Shown here piece by piece: positions 23,314-31,104 of a stretch of DNA of 64,000 bases. The stretch spans positions 4,464,001 to 4,528,000 of the forward strand of contig JAZGVH010000002.1 in NCBI GenBank assembly GCA_039889245.1. Direction: 5' to 3'. The notes under the pieces are model-generated. The model was not told the origin of the DNA, made no database searches, and was given only the letters and a program-made list of their open reading frames with translations. The translations under genes were made by a program, and so were the position numbers. The DNA is from Dermatophilaceae bacterium Soc4.6. Its GTDB lineage: Bacteria > Actinomycetota > Actinomycetes > Actinomycetales > Dermatophilaceae. Every line of letters begins with the position of its first letter. Position 1 is the stretch's first letter.

Positions 23314-23590
23314 GCCGATGAGGGGCCCGATCGACACCGCTCCTCGAGCTCGATCACGCGTCGGTCGCGGACCTCGTGTCTGCACGTGGCGTGGGGTCGG
23401 CCTGGCGGGGAAGGACCTCATCAGGCCCGCCGAACCGCTGTGGGACGCGATGGTGCGGGCTGTAGTAGTCGTTGACCTTGAGGGCGGCGGTAGTTCTGTC
23501 ACGCATCTCCCCGCGCGTTGAGGTTCCCGAGGGGTGCTGCGGCAAACGGTTGATCTGCAGCAGGGGCCTTGCCCGAGCGGCGATGGGGGC
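23314..23590. other. Intergenic DNA between the luciferase-like gene and the 25-bp array
   Basis: No supported gene. A minus-strand stretch near 23410-23515 reads MRDRTTAALKVNDYYSPHH, which may be a worn transposase scrap, but no start or domain can be defined. Confidence 0.35.
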
Positions 23591-23815
23591 GGCCGCTTGC
23601 GCGGCGGTGTGGTGAGGCCGCTCTCGCGGCGGTGTGGGACGGCCGCTCTCGCGGCGGTGTGGGACGGCCGCTCTCGCGGCGGTGTGGGACGGCCGCTCTC
23701 GCGGCGGTGTGGGACGGCCGCTCTCGCGGCGGTGTGGGACGGCCGCTCTCGCGGCGGTGTGGGACGGCCGCTCTCGCGGCGGTGTGGGACGGCCGCTCAC
23801 GCGGCGGAGTGGGAG
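23591..23815. repeat. 25-bp tandem repeat, nine units
   Basis: Nine consecutive 25-bp units fill exactly 225 bp. The central seven (23616-23790) are identical; the first and last units are divergent. Each unit contains GCCGC-TCTC-GCGGC, a small hairpin, followed by GGTGTGGGAC. Because 25 is not a multiple of 3, all frames cycle, giving long but meaningless open frames on both strands. The array ends two bases before the IS21 end. Confidence 0.93.
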
Positions 23816-23816
23816 G

Positions 23817-23861
23817 TGTCAGCGACGGGTGAAAACTGATCAGTGTCGACGGGTGAAATCT
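23817..23861 (+). repeat. IS21 left inverted repeat
   Basis: It begins TGTCAGCGACGGGTGAAAAC and contains a second GACGGGTGAAATCT copy. It matches the reverse complement of 29958-30003 apart from about eight differences and one or two gaps. Confidence 0.85.
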
Positions 23862-23887
23862 GACCACCTGGCGTGACCCTGTGGAGG

Positions 23888-25117
23888 GTGATCAGTGTGG
23901 AGGACTGGGCCGAGATCCGTCGGTTGTATCAGGGCGAGGGGTTGCCGATCGCAGCTGTGGCACGCCGGTTGGGCGTCGCGAGGAACACGGTGAAGAAGGC
24001 GTTGGCCAGCGACCATCCGCCGAAGTACGAGCGGCCGGTGACGGGGTCGGCTGTGGACGCGTTCGAGCTGGCGATCCGGGAGTTGCTGCAGGCGACGCCC
24101 ACGATGCCGGCCACAGTGATCGCGCAACGGATCGGGTGGGATCGGTCGCTGACAGTGTTGAAGGACCGGGTGCGGGAGCTGCGGCCGGTGTACCTGCCGC
24201 CGGACCCGGCCTCGCGCACGGTGTACCTGCCGGGTCAGCGGATGCAGTGCGACTTGTGGTTCCCGCCGGTCGACGTGCCACTGGGCTTCGGGCAGGTCGG
24301 GCGGCCGCCGGTGTTGGTGATGGCGGCTGGGTACTCGCGGATGTTGTTCGCGGTGATGATCCCGACGCGTCAGGGCCCGGACCTGATCGCGGGGCACTGG
24401 CTGCTGCTGCAACGGGTCGGTGCGGTGCCGCGGGAGCTGGTGTTGGACAACGAGTCCGCCGTGGGGTCGTGGCGGGCGGGGAAGCCGAAGCTGACCGACG
24501 AGTTCGAGGCGTTCCGTGGGACCTTGGGTATCGGGGTCCACCAGTGCCGATCTCGTGACCCGGAGGCCAAGGGCATCGTGGAACGCGCGAACGGCTACCT
24601 CGAGACCTCGTTCCTACCCGGGCGAGCCTTCACCGGGCCGGGCGACTTCAACACCCAGCTGAGTCAGTGGCTGACCCTGGCGAACACGCGCGTGGTCCGA
24701 CGGATCGGGTGCGCACCCACCCAGCGGTGGGAAGCCGACCAGGCAGGGATGCTGGCGCTGCCGCCGGTAGCTCCACTGATTGGGTGGCGGGCCCAGGTCC
24801 GGCTCCCGCGGGATCATTACGTCCGGATCGACGCCAATGACTACTCGGTCGACCCGGCCGCTGTCGGCCGGCGGGTCGAGGTGTCCGCGGACCTGGGCGC
24901 TGTCGTGATCACCGCCGCCGGGCGCACGGTGGGCGTCCACGAGCGGTGCTGGGCCCGACACCAGACCCTGACCGATCCCGTGCACCACCGGGCCGCGCTC
25001 GAGCTCGCTCACCGTGCCGCTCACCGACCGGCACCTGAGCTGAGCGACGAGGTCGAGGAGCGTGACCTTGCCGCCTACGATTCCGCGTTCGGGCTCACTG
25101 GTGAGGACGTGGCCTGA
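23888..25117 (+). CDS. istA: IS21-family transposase IstA
   Basis: 409 residues. An N-terminal HTH (VEDWAEIRRLYQGEGLPIAAVARRLGVARNTV) precedes a DDE integrase core with Asp in MQCDLWFPPV, Asp in LVLDNESAVG and Glu in EAKGIVERANGYLETSF. It catalyses strand transfer of the element together with the IstB ATPase. The GTG at 23888 (VISVEDW...) is the usual start; the ORF opens five codons earlier. Its stop overlaps the istB start. It appears intact although its partner is broken. Confidence 0.92.
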   Translation: MISVEDWAEIRRLYQGEGLPIAAVARRLGVARNTVKKALASDHPPKYERPVTGSAVDAFELAIRELLQATPTMPATVIAQRIGWDRSLTVLKDRVRELRPVYLPPDPASRTVYLPGQRMQCDLWFPPVDVPLGFGQVGRPPVLVMAAGYSRMLFAVMIPTRQGPDLIAGHWLLLQRVGAVPRELVLDNESAVGSWRAGKPKLTDEFEAFRGTLGIGVHQCRSRDPEAKGIVERANGYLETSFLPGRAFTGPGDFNTQLSQWLTLANTRVVRRIGCAPTQRWEADQAGMLALPPVAPLIGWRAQVRLPRDHYVRIDANDYSVDPAAVGRRVEVSADLGAVVITAAGRTVGVHERCWARHQTLTDPVHHRAALELAHRAAHRPAPELSDEVEERDLAAYDSAFGLTGEDVA

Positions 25118-25521
25118 TGCCGCCACGGACGAGAGCAGACGCGACCCTCGATTCCACCACCTCGCCGGCAGCTGCCGGTGCCAGCAACGCCGGGCGTGAC
25201 GTCAGCGCCGAGTTGGTGTTCCTGACCCGTGCCCTGAAGGCTCCTACCCTGCGTGAAGCGGTACCGCGGCTGGCCGAGCGGGCCCGCGCCGAGCTGTGGT
25301 CGCACGAGGAGTTCCTCACCGCCTGCCTTCAGCGGGAGGTGTCGGCCCGCGACGCCCACGGCGGCGAAGGGCGGATCCGAGCGGCCCGGTTCCCCTCACA
25401 AAAGTCATTGGAGGACTTCGACTTCGACTATGCCCGCGGACTGAAACGTGACGTCATCGCCCACCTCGGCACCCTCGACTTCATCACCGGTAAAGAGAAC
25501 GTCGTCTTCCTCGGCCCCGCC
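25117..25521 (+). pseudogene. istB: istB, N-terminal part (interrupted)
   Basis: ATG at 25117 overlaps the istA stop. The frame encodes the IstB N-terminal helices (FLTRALKAPTLREAVPRLAERARAE) and runs to ENVVFLGP, the first half of the Walker A loop, where an inserted element begins. Intact IstB continues PGTGKTHLA, and that sequence is found at 29486. The interrupted frame stops at 25545 within the insert. Confidence 0.9.
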
Positions 25522-25533
25522 GTTATCAGGGGG
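25522..25533 (+). repeat. Terminal inverted repeat of the Tn554-type element, left
   Basis: GTTATCAGGGGG, the exact reverse complement of 29473-29484. It interrupts istB between the Gly-Pro and Pro-Gly-Thr codons of its P-loop. Confidence 0.88.
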
Positions 25534-25563
25534 TCAGGCTTGTAGTGGTCATGTTCTTGCAGG

Positions 25564-26031
25564 TCAGGACGTTGTTGCGATCGATGCGACGAGTCGGGCG
25601 GTGGCGGGGGCGCTGGTGAGGGTGTGGCCTCGGCGGGCGAGCTCTCGGCGTAGGTCGAGGTTCTCCCCGTGGGCTTGTTCGAGGGCGGCGCGTAGAGCAC
25701 GGACTTCCTGACGGTGCCGCTGTTTCAGGGCGGTGATCTGAGCGGTCAGGGCGAGTACGAGGGTGCTCTCGACGTCTGCTGGCGCGGTTGGGGTGCGCGA
25801 CGGGGGGCGGCTCTGCTCGCGGAGCCGTTCGATGCGGCCGCGGAGTTCGGGGTGGTTGTAGAGGAAGGCGTGGGAGACGCCGGCCTCGCGTTGGACGGCC
25901 TGGAAGGTGATGGCCTCGCCGCGTTTGATCAGGGCGCGGAGGGCTTGCTCGGCGGCCGTGGTCTTCGCTGCGGACTTGGCCTTGGCCGCGGCGGTCAGCG
26001 CGGCGACGCGTTGGTCACGGTTCGCGGTCAC
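25564..26031 (-). CDS. tnpC: TnpC-like accessory transposition protein
   Basis: 155 residues. Residues ~30-70 (ALIKRGEAITFQAVQREAGVSHAFLYNHPELRGRIERLRE) form an HTH-like block, and ~85-135 is a coiled coil (LTAQITALKQRHRQEVRALRAALEQAHGENLDLRREL). This matches the small third protein of Tn554-type operons, thought to influence transposition frequency or orientation. GTG at 26031 overlaps the tnpB stop (GTGA). It ends 30 bp from the left inverted repeat. Confidence 0.82.
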   Translation of the reverse strand: MTANRDQRVAALTAAAKAKSAAKTTAAEQALRALIKRGEAITFQAVQREAGVSHAFLYNHPELRGRIERLREQSRPPSRTPTAPADVESTLVLALTAQITALKQRHRQEVRALRAALEQAHGENLDLRRELARRGHTLTSAPATARLVASIATTS

Positions 26032-28187
26032 GGGGTGCTCCTTCGGTGGCGGGTGAGGTCGAGGGTGAGCGGGACCGGTCCACCCGGCGGCGTGCCGCAG
26101 CCGCCGCCGTGCACGGCTCGGTCGGGGTGGTCGTCGATAAGGCTGAGCAGCCGGGTCAGCGCGGCCTGTTCCGCGCGTCGCTGGGCGAGCCAGATGTTGT
26201 CCTCGGGCATGGGGCGTCCGTACTTGTCCTGGAAGGCTGCGGTGCTGCGGGCGATCAGCTGGTCGGTCTCGACCAGCTGACGTGCCAGGGCGGTGTGGTG
26301 GGTCTGGTCGGTGACGAAGACCGAGCAGGTCAGACAGGCGTTGCCCTTGTCGCAGGACTGCAGCGGCGGCAGCAGGCACCAGCCGTGTGGCAGGACCCGG
26401 TCGGCGCGCTCGAACAGGTGCAGGCTGTCGTAGTCCTCGGAGGAGAACTGCACGCGGGTGCCGTCGGCCTTGAGTTTGGCGGTGGCCAGGAACGCCTGTT
26501 CGGCGTGTTCCTGGCGTTGGGCGATGTAGTGCATCGACATGGTCGGGGTGGCGTGGCCGGCGTATCGCTGCAGTACGTGGATCGGCAGCCCAAGCTCGGC
26601 GAGCCGGGTCAGCTTGGTGTGCCGGAACCGGTGGGTGTTGCTGAGGTTGACCGCTCGGCCCTTGCTGTCGGTGATCCGAGCCACGTCGCTCAGTTCGCGC
26701 AGCATCCAGTTGTAGGTGCCCGACGGGTAGGGCTTGTCGCCGCGGCGGTTGCCGGTGCGCTGGACGAACAGGAACCGCGGCCGCAGTTCGGGGAAGGACT
26801 GCCGGACCCAGCGTTGCTGTTCCTCGATGATCTCGGCGACCTCGCGGTCGACGAGGATGCTGTCCGGGGCGATGTCGATCTTGCTTTGGGCGTACCGGAA
26901 ACGCACGACCTCCTGGCCCGCGGCGTCCTGCGCGGTGGGGGCCGGAAGCTCTGACAGGCAGTCGAACTCGCAGGTGCGGACCTCGCTGGCGCGTCGACCC
27001 GTGAGGACCTGCAGCAAGATCATCCGCATCGCCTGCGGGTCGTCCAGCCCGCGGGCAAGCACCTGCTGGCCGTCACCGCGGGTGATGGTCATCTGCTCGT
27101 CGCGCGGCAGGCCGAGCAGTGGCAAACCGGCGATGATCTGGGCCATGGCGCGGTCGTCGACGTAGTGGCGGTCGTTGACGGTGGAGGTGTGCGGGATCCG
27201 AGTGACCTGACGAAACCAGCTGGCCGCGTGAGTGTCGGTGACGTGCTGCCAGGGCCCGGCGCCGAGGACGCCGCGGGCCTCGCGGGGGTTCGCGGCGACG
27301 AACGCGAGCAGTTCCGCGACTGCTCGCAGGTCGTCGTTGACCTGGCGCGGCTGGACCGGTTTGCCGTAGTAGCGTCGGTCGGTCTGACGGGTCATCCGGT
27401 TGGTCGGGTCCGCGGTCCAGCGGCGGAACGCGGCAGCGTGCTCGGGCGCCGCGGCCGGGTCGCCGAGGATGTCGCGAGGGTCCTCGAAGGTCACCGAGAG
27501 CCAGTTGTCGAAGCGGCGCAGGGACTTGAGCCGTTCCTGGCTGATCGTGGTCCAGCGCAGGACGCCGGACTCCAGCTGGGTGCCCAGGTGCCACTTGACC
27601 GCCTCACGCAGCCAGGGCTGGGCGAGGTGCCCGGGTGAGCAGCCGTAGTTCCCCAACGGCTCCCGCCCGGTCAGCGGGATCCGCGGGTCGCAGCGTGGCT
27701 GCCAGTCGTCCAGGGTCCACCACGGCCCGTCGTGGCAGCGGGCCAGCAGCGCCAGCCGAGCGAACCCGAACACCACCCGCAGCCGGGCCCGGCTGCCCTG
27801 GGGTGGCAGCCGGTTCCATCGGACCGCGTAGAACCAGCCCTGCAACGCCGAGGCGGCGTCCCAGTCCATGGCGCGGATCGAGCCGGGGAAGGGATGGTTG
27901 TCCCGGATGGCGCGGCGCAGGATGTTGGCGAGCTGGTTGACCGCCAGCACCGAGGAGCGGGTGCCGTCGGTGGCCTGCCAGTGCGCCATCCACGCCAGCT
28001 CGGCGGGGTACGGGTCGGGCAGCCCGCTCAGGTCGATCCTGCGGTCACCGTTCTCGGTCACGGCGGCCCAGTTCTCGATGTCCGGGCCGATGACCGGCCC
28101 ACGCCACGCCTCCGGGAGCTGCTGCCACAGCCGCCACACCGGGTCGGAGCCGCCGGCCAGGACAAGGTCGGTGCGCTTGTCGGTCAT
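26028..28187 (-). CDS. tnpB: Large tyrosine recombinase, TnpB of Tn554 type
   Basis: 719 residues, the large-recombinase size for this element class. The catalytic domain at about 350-600 shows LTGRRASEVRTCEFD (first Arg), then THRFRHTKLTRL (His/Arg box) and LQRYAGHATPTMSMHYIAQ (His and nucleophile Tyr). After it, a Cys-rich segment, PLQSCDKGNACLTCSVFVTDQ, may bind metal. The ATG at 28187 overlaps the tnpA stop (ATGA); the ORF runs 12 codons further upstream within tnpA. Confidence 0.9.
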   Translation of the reverse strand: MTDKRTDLVLAGGSDPVWRLWQQLPEAWRGPVIGPDIENWAAVTENGDRRIDLSGLPDPYPAELAWMAHWQATDGTRSSVLAVNQLANILRRAIRDNHPFPGSIRAMDWDAASALQGWFYAVRWNRLPPQGSRARLRVVFGFARLALLARCHDGPWWTLDDWQPRCDPRIPLTGREPLGNYGCSPGHLAQPWLREAVKWHLGTQLESGVLRWTTISQERLKSLRRFDNWLSVTFEDPRDILGDPAAAPEHAAAFRRWTADPTNRMTRQTDRRYYGKPVQPRQVNDDLRAVAELLAFVAANPREARGVLGAGPWQHVTDTHAASWFRQVTRIPHTSTVNDRHYVDDRAMAQIIAGLPLLGLPRDEQMTITRGDGQQVLARGLDDPQAMRMILLQVLTGRRASEVRTCEFDCLSELPAPTAQDAAGQEVVRFRYAQSKIDIAPDSILVDREVAEIIEEQQRWVRQSFPELRPRFLFVQRTGNRRGDKPYPSGTYNWMLRELSDVARITDSKGRAVNLSNTHRFRHTKLTRLAELGLPIHVLQRYAGHATPTMSMHYIAQRQEHAEQAFLATAKLKADGTRVQFSSEDYDSLHLFERADRVLPHGWCLLPPLQSCDKGNACLTCSVFVTDQTHHTALARQLVETDQLIARSTAAFQDKYGRPMPEDNIWLAQRRAEQAALTRLLSLIDDHPDRAVHGGGCGTPPGGPVPLTLDLTRHRRSTP

Positions 28188-29365
28188 CGGGTCACCTGCC
28201 AGTCGGCTACGTAGGAGGTCCACGTCGCGGCGGCACGCAGGGCCTCGTCCTCACGCACCCACCCGTAGAGGTCGAGGGTGGTTTGCACGTGGGCGTGACC
28301 CAGGCGTCGGGAGACGACCCATTCGGGGGTGCCGGCCAGCAGCAGTGCGGTGGCGTGGCTGTGCCGGAACCAGTGCGGGGTCCAGCCCGGCGGGCCAATA
28401 CCTTTGTTGCGTAACGAGGTGGTCTTGTCCCGCACGGTGCCCTCGCGTAACGCGGCCAGCAGCGGCGGCCGCTGCAAGTTGACGAAGAGCGCCGAGTCCG
28501 CGGACACCGTCAGGCCGAGCGTCGCGGCGTGGCAGGCCAGATGGGTCAGGTAGTCGGCGAACAGCCGCTCGAGGTCATGGCCGACATAGATCCGGCGAGG
28601 GCGCATCATCTTCACCCGCGCACCGTTCGGGTTGTCCTCGCGGGGAACGACCTCGACGTAGGGGGTGTCGCCGCGGCCCATCACGAAGTCGCGGATCCGC
28701 ATACCCAGCAGCTCACCCAGTCGCATCCCGGTCTCCGCGAGCATCGCGAACACGAGCCGATCTCGCAGGTTCCCCACCCACTCCCCGCTCACCGGGTCCA
28801 CCGCGGCACAGGAATCGAGGATCTCTTGGATCTGCTGCGGCAGCAGCAGCGGCGGGCGGTCGCCTCGCCGACTCCGTCGCACCCGCACCAGCGAGGAGGG
28901 CCCGGGCCTTGTGCGCTGGTCCAGATGCGCCAACAGTCCCCGTGCCGGGGCCTGTCGCGGCGCACCGCGCAGCAGCCTTTGCGCGACCTTCACCCCGAAG
29001 ACCGCATGCTGCCACCGGTAGAACGAGATCACCGCCGCCAGGCGCGCCTCGAGCGTCTCCGGTGACGGCGCCTCGGTTGGCTCCACGATGGCGTGCTCGA
29101 CGCGGCGGCCGTTGCGCAACCAGGACAGGAAACCCGAGACCGTCGGCACGCCGACGTCCTGCCACTGCTCGGCCTCGCCGCGCTGCTCCAGGAACGACCA
29201 CCACTGAGCCATCGAGGTGGCGTAGCTGCGCACCGTGTTAGGCGACCACAACAGCCGGTGCGCCTCCAGCCACTCCTCGACCGGACCCACCGTCCGGTAG
29301 GCCTCATCGACCACGGTCCACGTCCGACGCCCATCCGAGGGCCGAACCGCCACACTGATTGCCAC
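28184..29365 (-). CDS. tnpA: Tyrosine recombinase, TnpA of Tn554 type
   Basis: 393 residues. An N-terminal SAM-like core-binding domain (LWSPNTVRSYATSMAQWWSFLEQRG) is followed by a phage-integrase catalytic domain: AETGMRLGELLGMRIRDF (Arg), HWFRHSHATALLLAGTPEW (HxxR) and LGHAHVQTTLDLYGWV (His, Tyr). All key residues are present, so it looks active. GTG at 29365 is the start; it is the first gene of the tnpABC operon, 107 bp from the right terminal repeat. Confidence 0.9.
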   Translation of the reverse strand: MAISVAVRPSDGRRTWTVVDEAYRTVGPVEEWLEAHRLLWSPNTVRSYATSMAQWWSFLEQRGEAEQWQDVGVPTVSGFLSWLRNGRRVEHAIVEPTEAPSPETLEARLAAVISFYRWQHAVFGVKVAQRLLRGAPRQAPARGLLAHLDQRTRPGPSSLVRVRRSRRGDRPPLLLPQQIQEILDSCAAVDPVSGEWVGNLRDRLVFAMLAETGMRLGELLGMRIRDFVMGRGDTPYVEVVPREDNPNGARVKMMRPRRIYVGHDLERLFADYLTHLACHAATLGLTVSADSALFVNLQRPPLLAALREGTVRDKTTSLRNKGIGPPGWTPHWFRHSHATALLLAGTPEWVVSRRLGHAHVQTTLDLYGWVREDEALRAAATWTSYVADWQVTR

Positions 29366-29472
29366 AGTTGTCGTTCCATCTCGTCGAAGAACTCCCGCTG
29401 ATAGCGGAGCAACGACAATGACAAAAGGACCGACAGCAACTCGTCAGCGACGTACCTGCGGGCGGGTCAACT

Positions 29473-29484
29473 CCCCCTGATAAC
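29473..29484 (+). repeat. Terminal inverted repeat of the Tn554-type element, right
   Basis: CCCCCTGATAAC, exact reverse complement of the left end. One base later istB resumes with CCCGGAACCGGG (PGTG). Confidence 0.88.
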
Positions 29485-29485
29485 A

Positions 29486-29938
29486 CCCGGAACCGGGAAG
29501 ACCCACCTCGCGACCGGGATCGCGATCCGCGCCTGCCAGGCCGGGCACCGGGTCCTGCACGCCACCGCGTCCGAATGGGTCGACCGCCATGCCGGCGCCC
29601 ACCACGACGGACGCCTCCAGGACGAACTGCGCCGCCTGGGTCGCTACCCCTTGCCGGTCATCGACGAGGTCGGATACATCCCGTTCGAACCCGAAGCCGC
29701 GAACCTGTTCTTCTAGCTCGTCTCCTCCAGGTACGAGCGAGCCTCACTCATCGTCACCTCGAACAAGCCCTTCAGCCGCTGGGGCGAGGTCTTCGGCGAC
29801 GACGTCGTGGCCGCCGCCATGATCGACCGCCTCGTCCACCACGCCGACGTCATCGCCCTCAAAGGCGACTCCTACCGCCTCAAGAACCGCGACCTCGGCC
29901 GCATCCCCGCCACCCAGCACGGCGACGACCAACCATGA
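29486..29938 (+). pseudogene. istB: istB, C-terminal part, with an additional in-frame amber stop
   Basis: The frame resumes with PGTGKTHLATGIAIRACQAG (rest of Walker A), then LPVIDEVGYIPFEPEAANLFF (Walker B) and, after a stop, LVSSRYERASLIVTSNKPFSRWGEVF and the usual C terminus. The stop at 29714-29716 is TAG where homologues have Gln (CAG), so one transition also inactivated this half. It ends 65 bp before the IS21 right end. Confidence 0.88.
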
Positions 29939-29957
29939 CCAACCAGACCGGCTGGTT

Positions 29958-30003
29958 AGATTTCAACCGTCGATATCAGATCAATCTTCACCCGCCGTTG
30001 ACA
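29958..30003 (-). repeat. IS21 right inverted repeat
   Basis: Read on the minus strand it begins TGTCAACGGCGGGTGAAGAT and ends ...GGTTGAAATCT, matching the left end. The base after it is not a duplicate of the left flank. Confidence 0.83.
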
Positions 30004-30510: not shown

Positions 30511-31104
30511 TCAGTGTTCGTCTGCGACGACGACGGACTGAATCTTCCAAGCCCCACTAGTTGCAACTAGCGTCACGCCGGCTGTGAGCTCGAGCCACGG
30601 CTGGCCTCCCGGCGGGTAGGTGATGCTGCCTGCGGGCACGATCGCGCCGTCGGGGAGCACCTGGATCGGGGACGCGCTGACGGTCACGGCCGTGTAGGCG
30701 GCCAGGTCGGCCGCCGCGAAGGTGGTACGCAGCTCGGTGACGGCCGCAGCACACGTCGAGGTGCCCGTAGCCTCGACCAGCTCCTCCTGGCCTTGGTCGG
30801 TGAGGAACTGGCACGAAGTGGTGGGGTCCGCGGACGCCATCGTGAGGTGCCACTGCCGCACGATGGCAGCTACCGCTTCGCGCTGGTCTCTGGTGGAGGT
30901 CGTCGGGTTGGGGTTGGTCGAGGTGCCCGTGCACCCGGCCATGCTCAGGGCAAACGCGGCAAACGCGGCAAACGCGGCAAACGCGGCAAACGCGGCAAAC
31001 GCGGCAAACGCGGCAAACGCGGCAAACGCGGCAAAGGCGGCGAAGGCCGCGCGCGCGGCCGCACGACCGGCGGCCGTCTGGGCTGGGCCCACCCTTACGA
31101 GCAT
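30511..31104 (-). CDS. Lipoprotein with a repeat-built signal peptide
   Basis: 197 residues from ATG at 31104. The signal region has the hydrophobic core (Ala-Ala-Phe) repeated about eleven times, followed by the lipobox LSMAGC; the mature part is ~145 residues with two Cys (TSCQF, TSTCAAA) and resembles small secreted NTF2-like proteins (AVAAIVRQWHLTMASADPTTSC, then WKIQSVVVADE). The hydrophobic stretch of ~35 residues is about twice that of normal lipoprotein signals. The start overlaps the end of the upstream phospholipase-like gene by 10 bases, so the two are probably coupled. Function is unknown. Confidence 0.75.
   Translation of the reverse strand: MLVRVGPAQTAAGRAAARAAFAAFAAFAAFAAFAAFAAFAAFAAFAAFAAFALSMAGCTGTSTNPNPTTSTRDQREAVAAIVRQWHLTMASADPTTSCQFLTDQGQEELVEATGTSTCAAAVTELRTTFAAADLAAYTAVTVSASPIQVLPDGAIVPAGSITYPPGGQPWLELTAGVTLVATSGAWKIQSVVVADEH
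30950..31048. repeat. 9-bp tandem repeat in a signal-peptide coding region
   Basis: Nine perfect units of GCAAACGCG run from 30950 to 31030, followed by two degenerate units (GCAAAGGCG, GCGAAGGCC). On the coding strand each unit adds Ala-Phe-Ala. Gain or loss of a unit keeps the frame and changes the hydrophobic core by three residues. Confidence 0.93.

Follow-up and report, generated by a model that had tools for sequence, protein, structure and literature searches.

An actinobacterial Tn554-type transposon with a preference for the Walker A codons of IS21 istB genes

The element and the IS21 copy that it interrupts

The stretch of DNA analyzed here, referred to throughout as the window, comprises 64,000 nucleotides of the genome of Dermatophilaceae bacterium Soc4.6 (contig JAZGVH010000002.1 of assembly GCA_039889245.1, forward-strand positions 4,464,001 to 4,528,000). 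It contains a Tn554-type transposon lying within the istB gene of an IS21 insertion sequence (IS), and it is this element and its choice of target that we discuss. Including the inserted element, the host IS21 copy occupies forward-strand positions 23817 to 30003 approximately. Its end repeats agree in 18 of 20 positions, and the outermost TGTCA ends were identified by eye. Its istA gene (23873–25117, forward strand; 414 amino acids (aa)) is open, and matches the NCBIfam IS21 transposase model NF033546 at 1.3e-62; no second close copy of this istA was found in the genome, where the next-best match is 24% identical. The istB gene is divided into two. The N-terminal half (25117–25516, forward strand; PF01695 profile positions 4–101) ends at the G-P of the Walker A motif, the adjoining core supplying the rest of P-x-G, and the C-terminal half (29490–29938, forward strand) resumes at G-T-G-K-T-H. 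An initial inspection of the window, which we call the sequence-only reading, had placed the break within the Walker A codons, with ...ENVVFLGP before the left junction and PGTGKTHLA after the right, and this is what we find. The C-terminal half has one extra in-frame TAG, at approximately 29715–29717, before which it matches profile positions 101–176; the host IS21 copy thus appears to have decayed, either before or after the insertion. Short GC-rich tandem repeats lie beside the left end of the IS21 (about 23550–23830) and at 30950–31020, and give rise to repetitive open reading frames on both strands.

The transposon proper runs from TTATC to GATAA on the reverse strand at 25523–29483, a length of 3961 base pairs (bp), its ends being set by comparison with relatives. 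The sequence-only reading had located the insert correctly, but its exact ends were one base off on each side. The two other copies in the genome are identical to that of the window over 3963 bp, i.e. with a further base at either end. Three genes fill the element, all on the reverse strand. The first, tnpA (28184–29365), encodes a tyrosine recombinase of 393 aa (PF00589 at 2.4e-16, PF02899 at 1.9e-5); tnpB (26028–28223), in the same direction, encodes a long tyrosine recombinase of up to 731 aa (PF00589 at 2e-9, residues 460–572); and tnpC (25564–26031) encodes a DUF6262 protein (PF19776 at 8.1e-12), its start near 26031 being read by eye within an open reading frame listed to 26379. The predicted trio of genes is therefore borne out by Pfam, and the list of open reading frames of the window element contains no cargo gene besides these three. 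The 12-bp inverted repeat previously reported at the ends is indeed perfect in the window copy, although only the outer TTATC/GATAA is common to all 10 members that were compared end to end, the remainder of the repeat differing between them. Five members from Streptomyces (L010, L012, L014, L105 and L113; loci are given L numbers) are longer by about 0.5 kb between tnpC and the right end. The extra stretch carries differing small open reading frames, one Nudix-like and one NTF2-like by eye, and these are possible passenger genes.

This architecture places the element among the actinobacterial Tn554-related transposons named by Van Houdt et al. in 2012 (PMC3414803). The accessible part of that account describes a class having two tyrosine recombinases, one of normal size and the other very long, and mostly a TnpC, as here, and with hosts in Mycobacterium, Rhodococcus and Streptomyces, again as here; plasmid pBD2, which is in its list, also holds one of our istB-flanked loci (L112). 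The RIT elements are likewise trios, but according to the accessible part of PMC10214605 they comprise three recombinases of 315–410 aa and no TnpC, whereas here the third gene encodes a DUF6262 protein and the second a recombinase of up to 731 aa. The SE/GInt elements, in the portions of their literature available, have four core genes including Tfp/GinC and are described chiefly from Proteobacteria, compared with three genes in the window element.

The gene order tnpA–tnpB–tnpC(DUF6262) is that of the Tn554 family proper. Compared with a Tn554-family member on an Exiguobacterium plasmid, TnpA, TnpB and TnpC are 26.6, 28.5 and 28.2% identical in the aligned parts (pairwise BLASTP 7e-39, 2e-22 and 2e-11, for TnpC over 110 aa), and the left end of that member also starts with TTATC, as judged by eye. 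The family proper, found in Staphylococcus and Enterococcus, uses a site in radC (att554). By contrast, the target of the window element is istB, a mobile gene present in many copies.

Targets of the closest relatives

All three identical copies in this genome occupy the same istB codon position, within three istB genes whose halves are pairwise 31–41% identical. How general is this choice of site? We define clade I as the 68 tabulated loci whose TnpA shows an identity of 57% or more in its best segment. The survey drew upon a single scan of genome contigs that gave 70 loci, 20 stretches fetched from further genomes, and 14 places in plasmids with TnpA 71–79% identical. The last come from 14 out of a total of 18 plasmid records in which TnpA matches at 60–80%, a fifteenth (M. 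gordonae) being by its coordinates the same place as L146. Re-fetched stretches were set aside, i.e. L135 (the contig of L019, with the same length and TnpA), together with the short L001–L003 and L086–L088, which belong to other rows; for L010, L013 and L036 the right end was placed by visual inspection. A TnpA match at E ≤ 1e-60 is present in 11 of 394 genomes of a class sample and 5 of 186 of a family sample, both including the window genome, and most of these matches are of a distant kind, 40–50% identical. Eight pattern stretches in viral contigs included no relative, and of the 117 phage records matched just four cover over 80% of the query, all less than 60% identical.

A junction is readable in 58 of the 68 clade-I loci, and in 49 of the 58 the element lies in the istB P-loop, at the same codon position; a fixed insertion site is a trait of the Tn554 class. 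Identity between the target genes and the window istB goes down to about 30%, and the element is found in both orientations (29 sense and 20 antisense among 49 left junctions, a count that includes L037). We compared 99 flank peptides, each 40 aa or longer, and found matches to PF01695 in 83 and likewise to the NCBIfam model IS21_help_AAA in 83; 12 of these peptides flank elements that have a different target, so that at most 87 istB-labelled sides are expected to match. In eight of the 14 plasmid records (L103, L104, L106 and L108–L112) an istA or IS21 transposase gene is annotated near the element, while among the others L105 and L113 carry no gene annotation and L101 and L102 have a different target. 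Mycolicibacterium frederiksbergense LB501T has five copies in istB and one in another P-loop gene.

The nine remaining targets fall into four kinds. Three are Prim-Pol genes (L011, L101 and L102), where the profile match ends at position 93 in each case; such genes are common on plasmids and integrative elements. Three are ISKra4 transposase genes (L029, L070 and L113), all broken at profile position 294|295. Two are associated with IS605, tnpB in L023 and an IS605-like hairpin, recognised by eye, in L020. The last is the other P-loop gene of LB501T (L037, on a plasmid, with junctions around 6881 and 10834), which reads GPS|GVGKTH and has no match among the Pfam, NCBIfam and PADLOC models at the thresholds applied. 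The sequence-only reading had proposed the istB Walker A codons as the preferred site and pointed to the flanks of further copies of the trio. Those flanks are istB in the great majority, across both orientations and very divergent istB genes. Unrelated sites, which it had taken as the sign against the proposal, do occur, in nine of the 58, and broaden the preference rather than breaking it.

Might the distribution simply reflect one ancient insertion into istB, the composite having then been spread by transposition of IS21? In favour of this, the ends of the host IS21, a transposon in its own right, can be recognised, and a few loci do share an istB flank. Yet identical elements lie in istB genes that are 31–41% identical, in both orientations and with differing cores, and hence cannot be one insertion carried along by IS21; moreover a close copy of istA occurs just once in the genome. 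When flanks at least 95% identical are pooled, the 50 P-loop loci (49 istB plus L037) still form 45 groups. Even inside such groups there is evidence of separate insertion, since istB genes that are nearly identical contain the element facing in opposite directions: this is so for L106 and L107, on two plasmids of one Rhodococcus strain with istB flanks 98% alike, and for L105 compared with L103 and L104. We consider a single ancient insertion very improbable, and repeated insertion at the same istB position accounts better for these loci.

The sequence of the site and the origin of its cores

In the sense of istB the site can be written GGNC-[CNNNNG]-GN4GGNAAR, encoding G-P-x-G-x-G-K, and insertion occurs across the bracketed 6-bp core, which is nearly always CNNNNG. 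A logo was made from 49 distinct N sides and 36 distinct C sides, including L037 and leaving out L134 with its extra base. The bases conserved at 97–100% are T-9, GG-4/-3, C-1, G+1, GG+6/+7, AA+9/+10, CA+15/+16 and G+27. With the exception of G+27, these are the bases fixed by the peptide [hydrophobic]-x-G-P-x-G-x-G-K-[TS]-H, and the wobble bases vary. The C side reads x-G-x-G-K-[TS]-H in 37 of 38 peptides and the N side ends in G-P-x in 53 of 53, the sides being assigned from the bases beside the core so that the G-P part of the N-side count is partly by construction. By eye the arms of the site are weakly inverted-repeat-like, which may explain the use of both orientations.

The close correspondence between the site and the protein motif raises the alternative that the element recognises the Walker A DNA of any P-loop gene, and that insertions in istB are those that survive because loss of the gene is harmless. 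Nearly all the conserved target positions are fixed by the protein motif, as this would require, and the TnpA of L037 is identical to that of the istB-inserted copies of the same strain, even though its target is another P-loop gene. A DnaA-like protein of the window genome reads GDSGLGKTH, albeit without the G-P. But a shorter P-loop DNA pattern has 80 intact matches in the window genome. Of these, 15 distinct sites were read, and several look by eye to be of ABC type. Nevertheless the three copies are all in istB; a P-loop alone thus seems not to be sufficient. No insertion into an ABC-transporter gene was recognised among the 58 readable loci. The targets furthermore extend to the histidine codon, with GK[TS]H in 37 of 38 C sides compared with none of 15 distinct P-loop sites read (17 matches, two of them double). 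We therefore regard recognition of any P-loop gene as unlikely compared with a preference for the IstB form of the motif.

The uninterrupted istB genes of this genome bear upon the same point. A whole-genome Pfam search gave five full-length and one partial empty istB, all six reading GPSGTGKTF, whereas the three interrupted genes read GTGKTH, GTGKSH and GVGKTH. This fits a target that reaches the histidine codon, but it is weak evidence, as the six empty genes are alike around the P-loop and probably close relatives. Five further weak or partial matches were found in that search (L173–L177), two of them above the cut-off, and by eye L173 is DnaA-like.

The cores at the two ends behave differently. 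In the window copy, read in the orientation of the element, the tnpA-side core (29484–29489) is CGGGTG and is probably derived from the target, while the tnpC-side core (25517–25522) is CGGCGG and is read as a footprint of the donor. Counts were made over the 50 P-loop loci, taking as natural the residues P, A, S, V and T, a set chosen from the sites seen. The left (tnpA-side) core provides a natural residue in 49 of 49 loci, and the right (tnpC-side) core in 20 of 42, giving otherwise G, D or L. Both cores can be read in 41 loci, of which 21 are discordant, all in the same direction (p about 1e-6). All 21 discordant right cores turn into natural P-loop cores on reverse complementation, which is what one would expect had the element previously occupied a P-loop while facing the other way. 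Among the remaining 20 right cores, 12 are natural in either direction and eight only as they stand. Among the 41 pairs of cores from P-loop sites, just three have the same sequence at left and right, and hence there is no target-site duplication.

The right core instead corresponds to the left core of a sister copy in the same genome, in 3/3 cases in the window genome and 6/6 in LB501T (9/9 together). Right cores taken from other genomes as a control match in 2/33 and 5/33, respectively. The correspondence is clearest in L042. Its right core, CCAGCG, recurs as the left core of the plasmid-borne copy L037 from the same strain. Some of the matches are mutual, as between the window copy and L079, so that a strict order of parent and child cannot be read. 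According to the accessible part of PMC10214605, SE elements and Tn554 follow the rule that the target core comes to lie at attL and 6 bp of the donor at attR. The cores found here behave alike, which supports a shared chemistry.

Sister lineages and the wider meaning

The genome of the window contains a second Tn554-type element, a relative 38% identical, in five identical copies (L081–L085). All five break the E-[AG]-x-N segment, the catalytic-glutamate region, of DDE transposases. Three lie in ISL3, where the DDE_Tnp_ISL3 match ends at profile position 215–216 in each, and two in IS3, with an rve domain in L084 and flanks of L085 near-identical to those of L084. Here too the right core equals the left core of a sister copy, in four of the five. 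Among 15 further relatives both junctions were read in 11, and 10 of the 11 are in genes of mobile elements: IS3 orfA (L153 by Pfam, L127 by eye), IS1380 (L129 and L130, both broken at profile position 352), IS5 (L133), IS256 (L147), a serine recombinase (L149), Tn3 (L154) and TniB (L150 and L151, the same insertion in two plasmids of one Rhodococcus strain, Pfam being run on L150). In L150 and L151 the split gene is the TniB-type gene of a Tn7-like transposon, lying between a TnsA-like/helix-turn-helix pair and TniQ. The eleventh locus is L152, and L128, L131, L132 and L148 are outside the 11.

Such a rule is not universal, as the genes used by more distant clades are not evidently mobile ones. 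These include an SRAP gene (L139, PF02586) and, by eye, an HNH-like gene in L072 and L076, with which L069 was grouped by sequence alone; the flank of L072 matched no Pfam family. The Exiguobacterium member follows a JAB-domain (RadC-type) gene. For the distant relatives the targets are readable in a minority of 42 loci. We used a tree for grouping only; it is a quick one of 101 rows with SH-aLRT support alone and several long branches, and omits proteins shorter than 300 aa, together with 11 named rows. The istB label changes eight times on this tree compared with a mean of 31.0 after shuffling, rows with unknown target being given a separate label. The Prim-Pol users form one group nested among the istB users (support 89), suggesting a switch of target.

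Could the elements insert at random, selection then leaving those that fell in transposase genes as safe places? The surviving clade-I insertions are in dispensable-looking genes, as this would predict. But the same codon is used in all 49 istB loci, and the profile positions are fixed in Prim-Pol, ISKra4 and ISL3 (3/3 each) and in IS1380 (2/2). We give this explanation the least credence of all, even less than the single ancient insertion, and the positions argue for specific choice of site.

We conclude that the window element is most probably (with a probability of about 0.87, judged from sequence comparison) a site-specific member of the actinobacterial Tn554-related transposons, and that its natural attachment site would be the DNA encoding the Walker A motif of IstB, G-P-x-G-x-G-K-[TS]-H. 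A number of points weigh against this. All the evidence is from sequence, with no observed excision, circle or transposition. Nine of the 58 readable clade-I loci lie outside istB, and ten of the 68 have no readable junction (L015, L021, L040, L041, L044, L046, L048, L055, L056 and L136). The 58 are not all independent, as istB flanks at least 95% identical are shared by L036/L109, by L103/L104/L105, by L106/L107 and by L111/L112, and the first 40-odd flank bases of L065 are also those of L031, which is on the same plasmid. Since the wobble positions are not conserved, protein conservation and recognition by the recombinase are not fully separable. Public genomes are a biased sample, in which insertions are visible only where they are tolerated, and eight of the 15 further relatives were chosen from plasmids, which are rich in mobile-element genes (8 of 30 listed second-lineage matches). 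Finally, eight loci have mismatched istB halves, six having two N halves and two, L010 and L014, halves of differing istB types joined, as seen by eye. Some junctions have thus been reshuffled later, and this could have occurred by homologous exchange between copies or by one-ended recombination. The loci with an N half on both sides are L009, L026, L027, L111, L112 and L134; none of the 41 with both sides read has two C halves.

The preference for istB is nonetheless well supported, and a broader picture of hyper-parasitism is likely, if unevenly sampled. In sister lineages the target has shifted to other transposase genes, again at conserved motifs. On balance we favour the view that among the actinobacterial Tn554-type transposons there are entire lineages living as hyper-parasites, the recombinases of each clade reading the DNA that encodes a motif of particular mobile-element genes, and that target switching drove their diversification. 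These motifs would be the Walker A of IstB, HVLEYLW of ISKra4, the catalytic-glutamate region of ISL3 and IS3, and those of IS256, IS1380, IS5, IS3 OrfA, Tn3, TniB, IS605 TnpB, resolvase and Prim-Pol. In the mechanism that we envisage, TnpA and TnpB, with TnpC, would generate a circular or copied-out intermediate carrying the 6 bp to the left of tnpA. This would recombine with the next P-loop site with no need for identity of the cores, as published for SE elements and Tn554. Tolerance at the core and at codon-wobble positions would allow one recombinase to use very many IS21 elements. As IS21 is mobile and dispensable, each insertion would kill a gene of a parasite rather than one of the host, and the target site would be renewed as IS21 spreads.

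In the literature searched, which lay within open papers and excluded subscription articles and preprints, we found nothing on targeting of istB, but only single insertions of SE and RIT elements in transposase genes. One SE insertion into insJ of IS3 is on record, and one RIT type interrupts the transposase gene of a transposon related to Tn6049, the insertion occupying a single shared location in the genome (accessible part of PMC3414803). The available portions of the SE/GInt literature contain no mention of istB targeting that we could find. That part of PMC3414803 names no target for the Tn554-related class, whereas here the sites are the P-loop codons of IS21 istB, together with motifs of mobile genes in the sister lineages; the targets of the class thus appear to be undescribed in the literature searched.

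What we describe is known chemistry in a newly recognised and unusual niche. A class of transposon described in 2012 without an attachment site is now given one, and the strategy of a parasite of parasites is repeated across several lineages. The analysis points to an integrase system in which the donor and target 6-bp cores need not match. Since the right-end core seems to record the origin of a copy, histories of transposition could be read from genomes. Within the host, the interruption of istB and other transposase genes may restrain the activity of insertion sequences.
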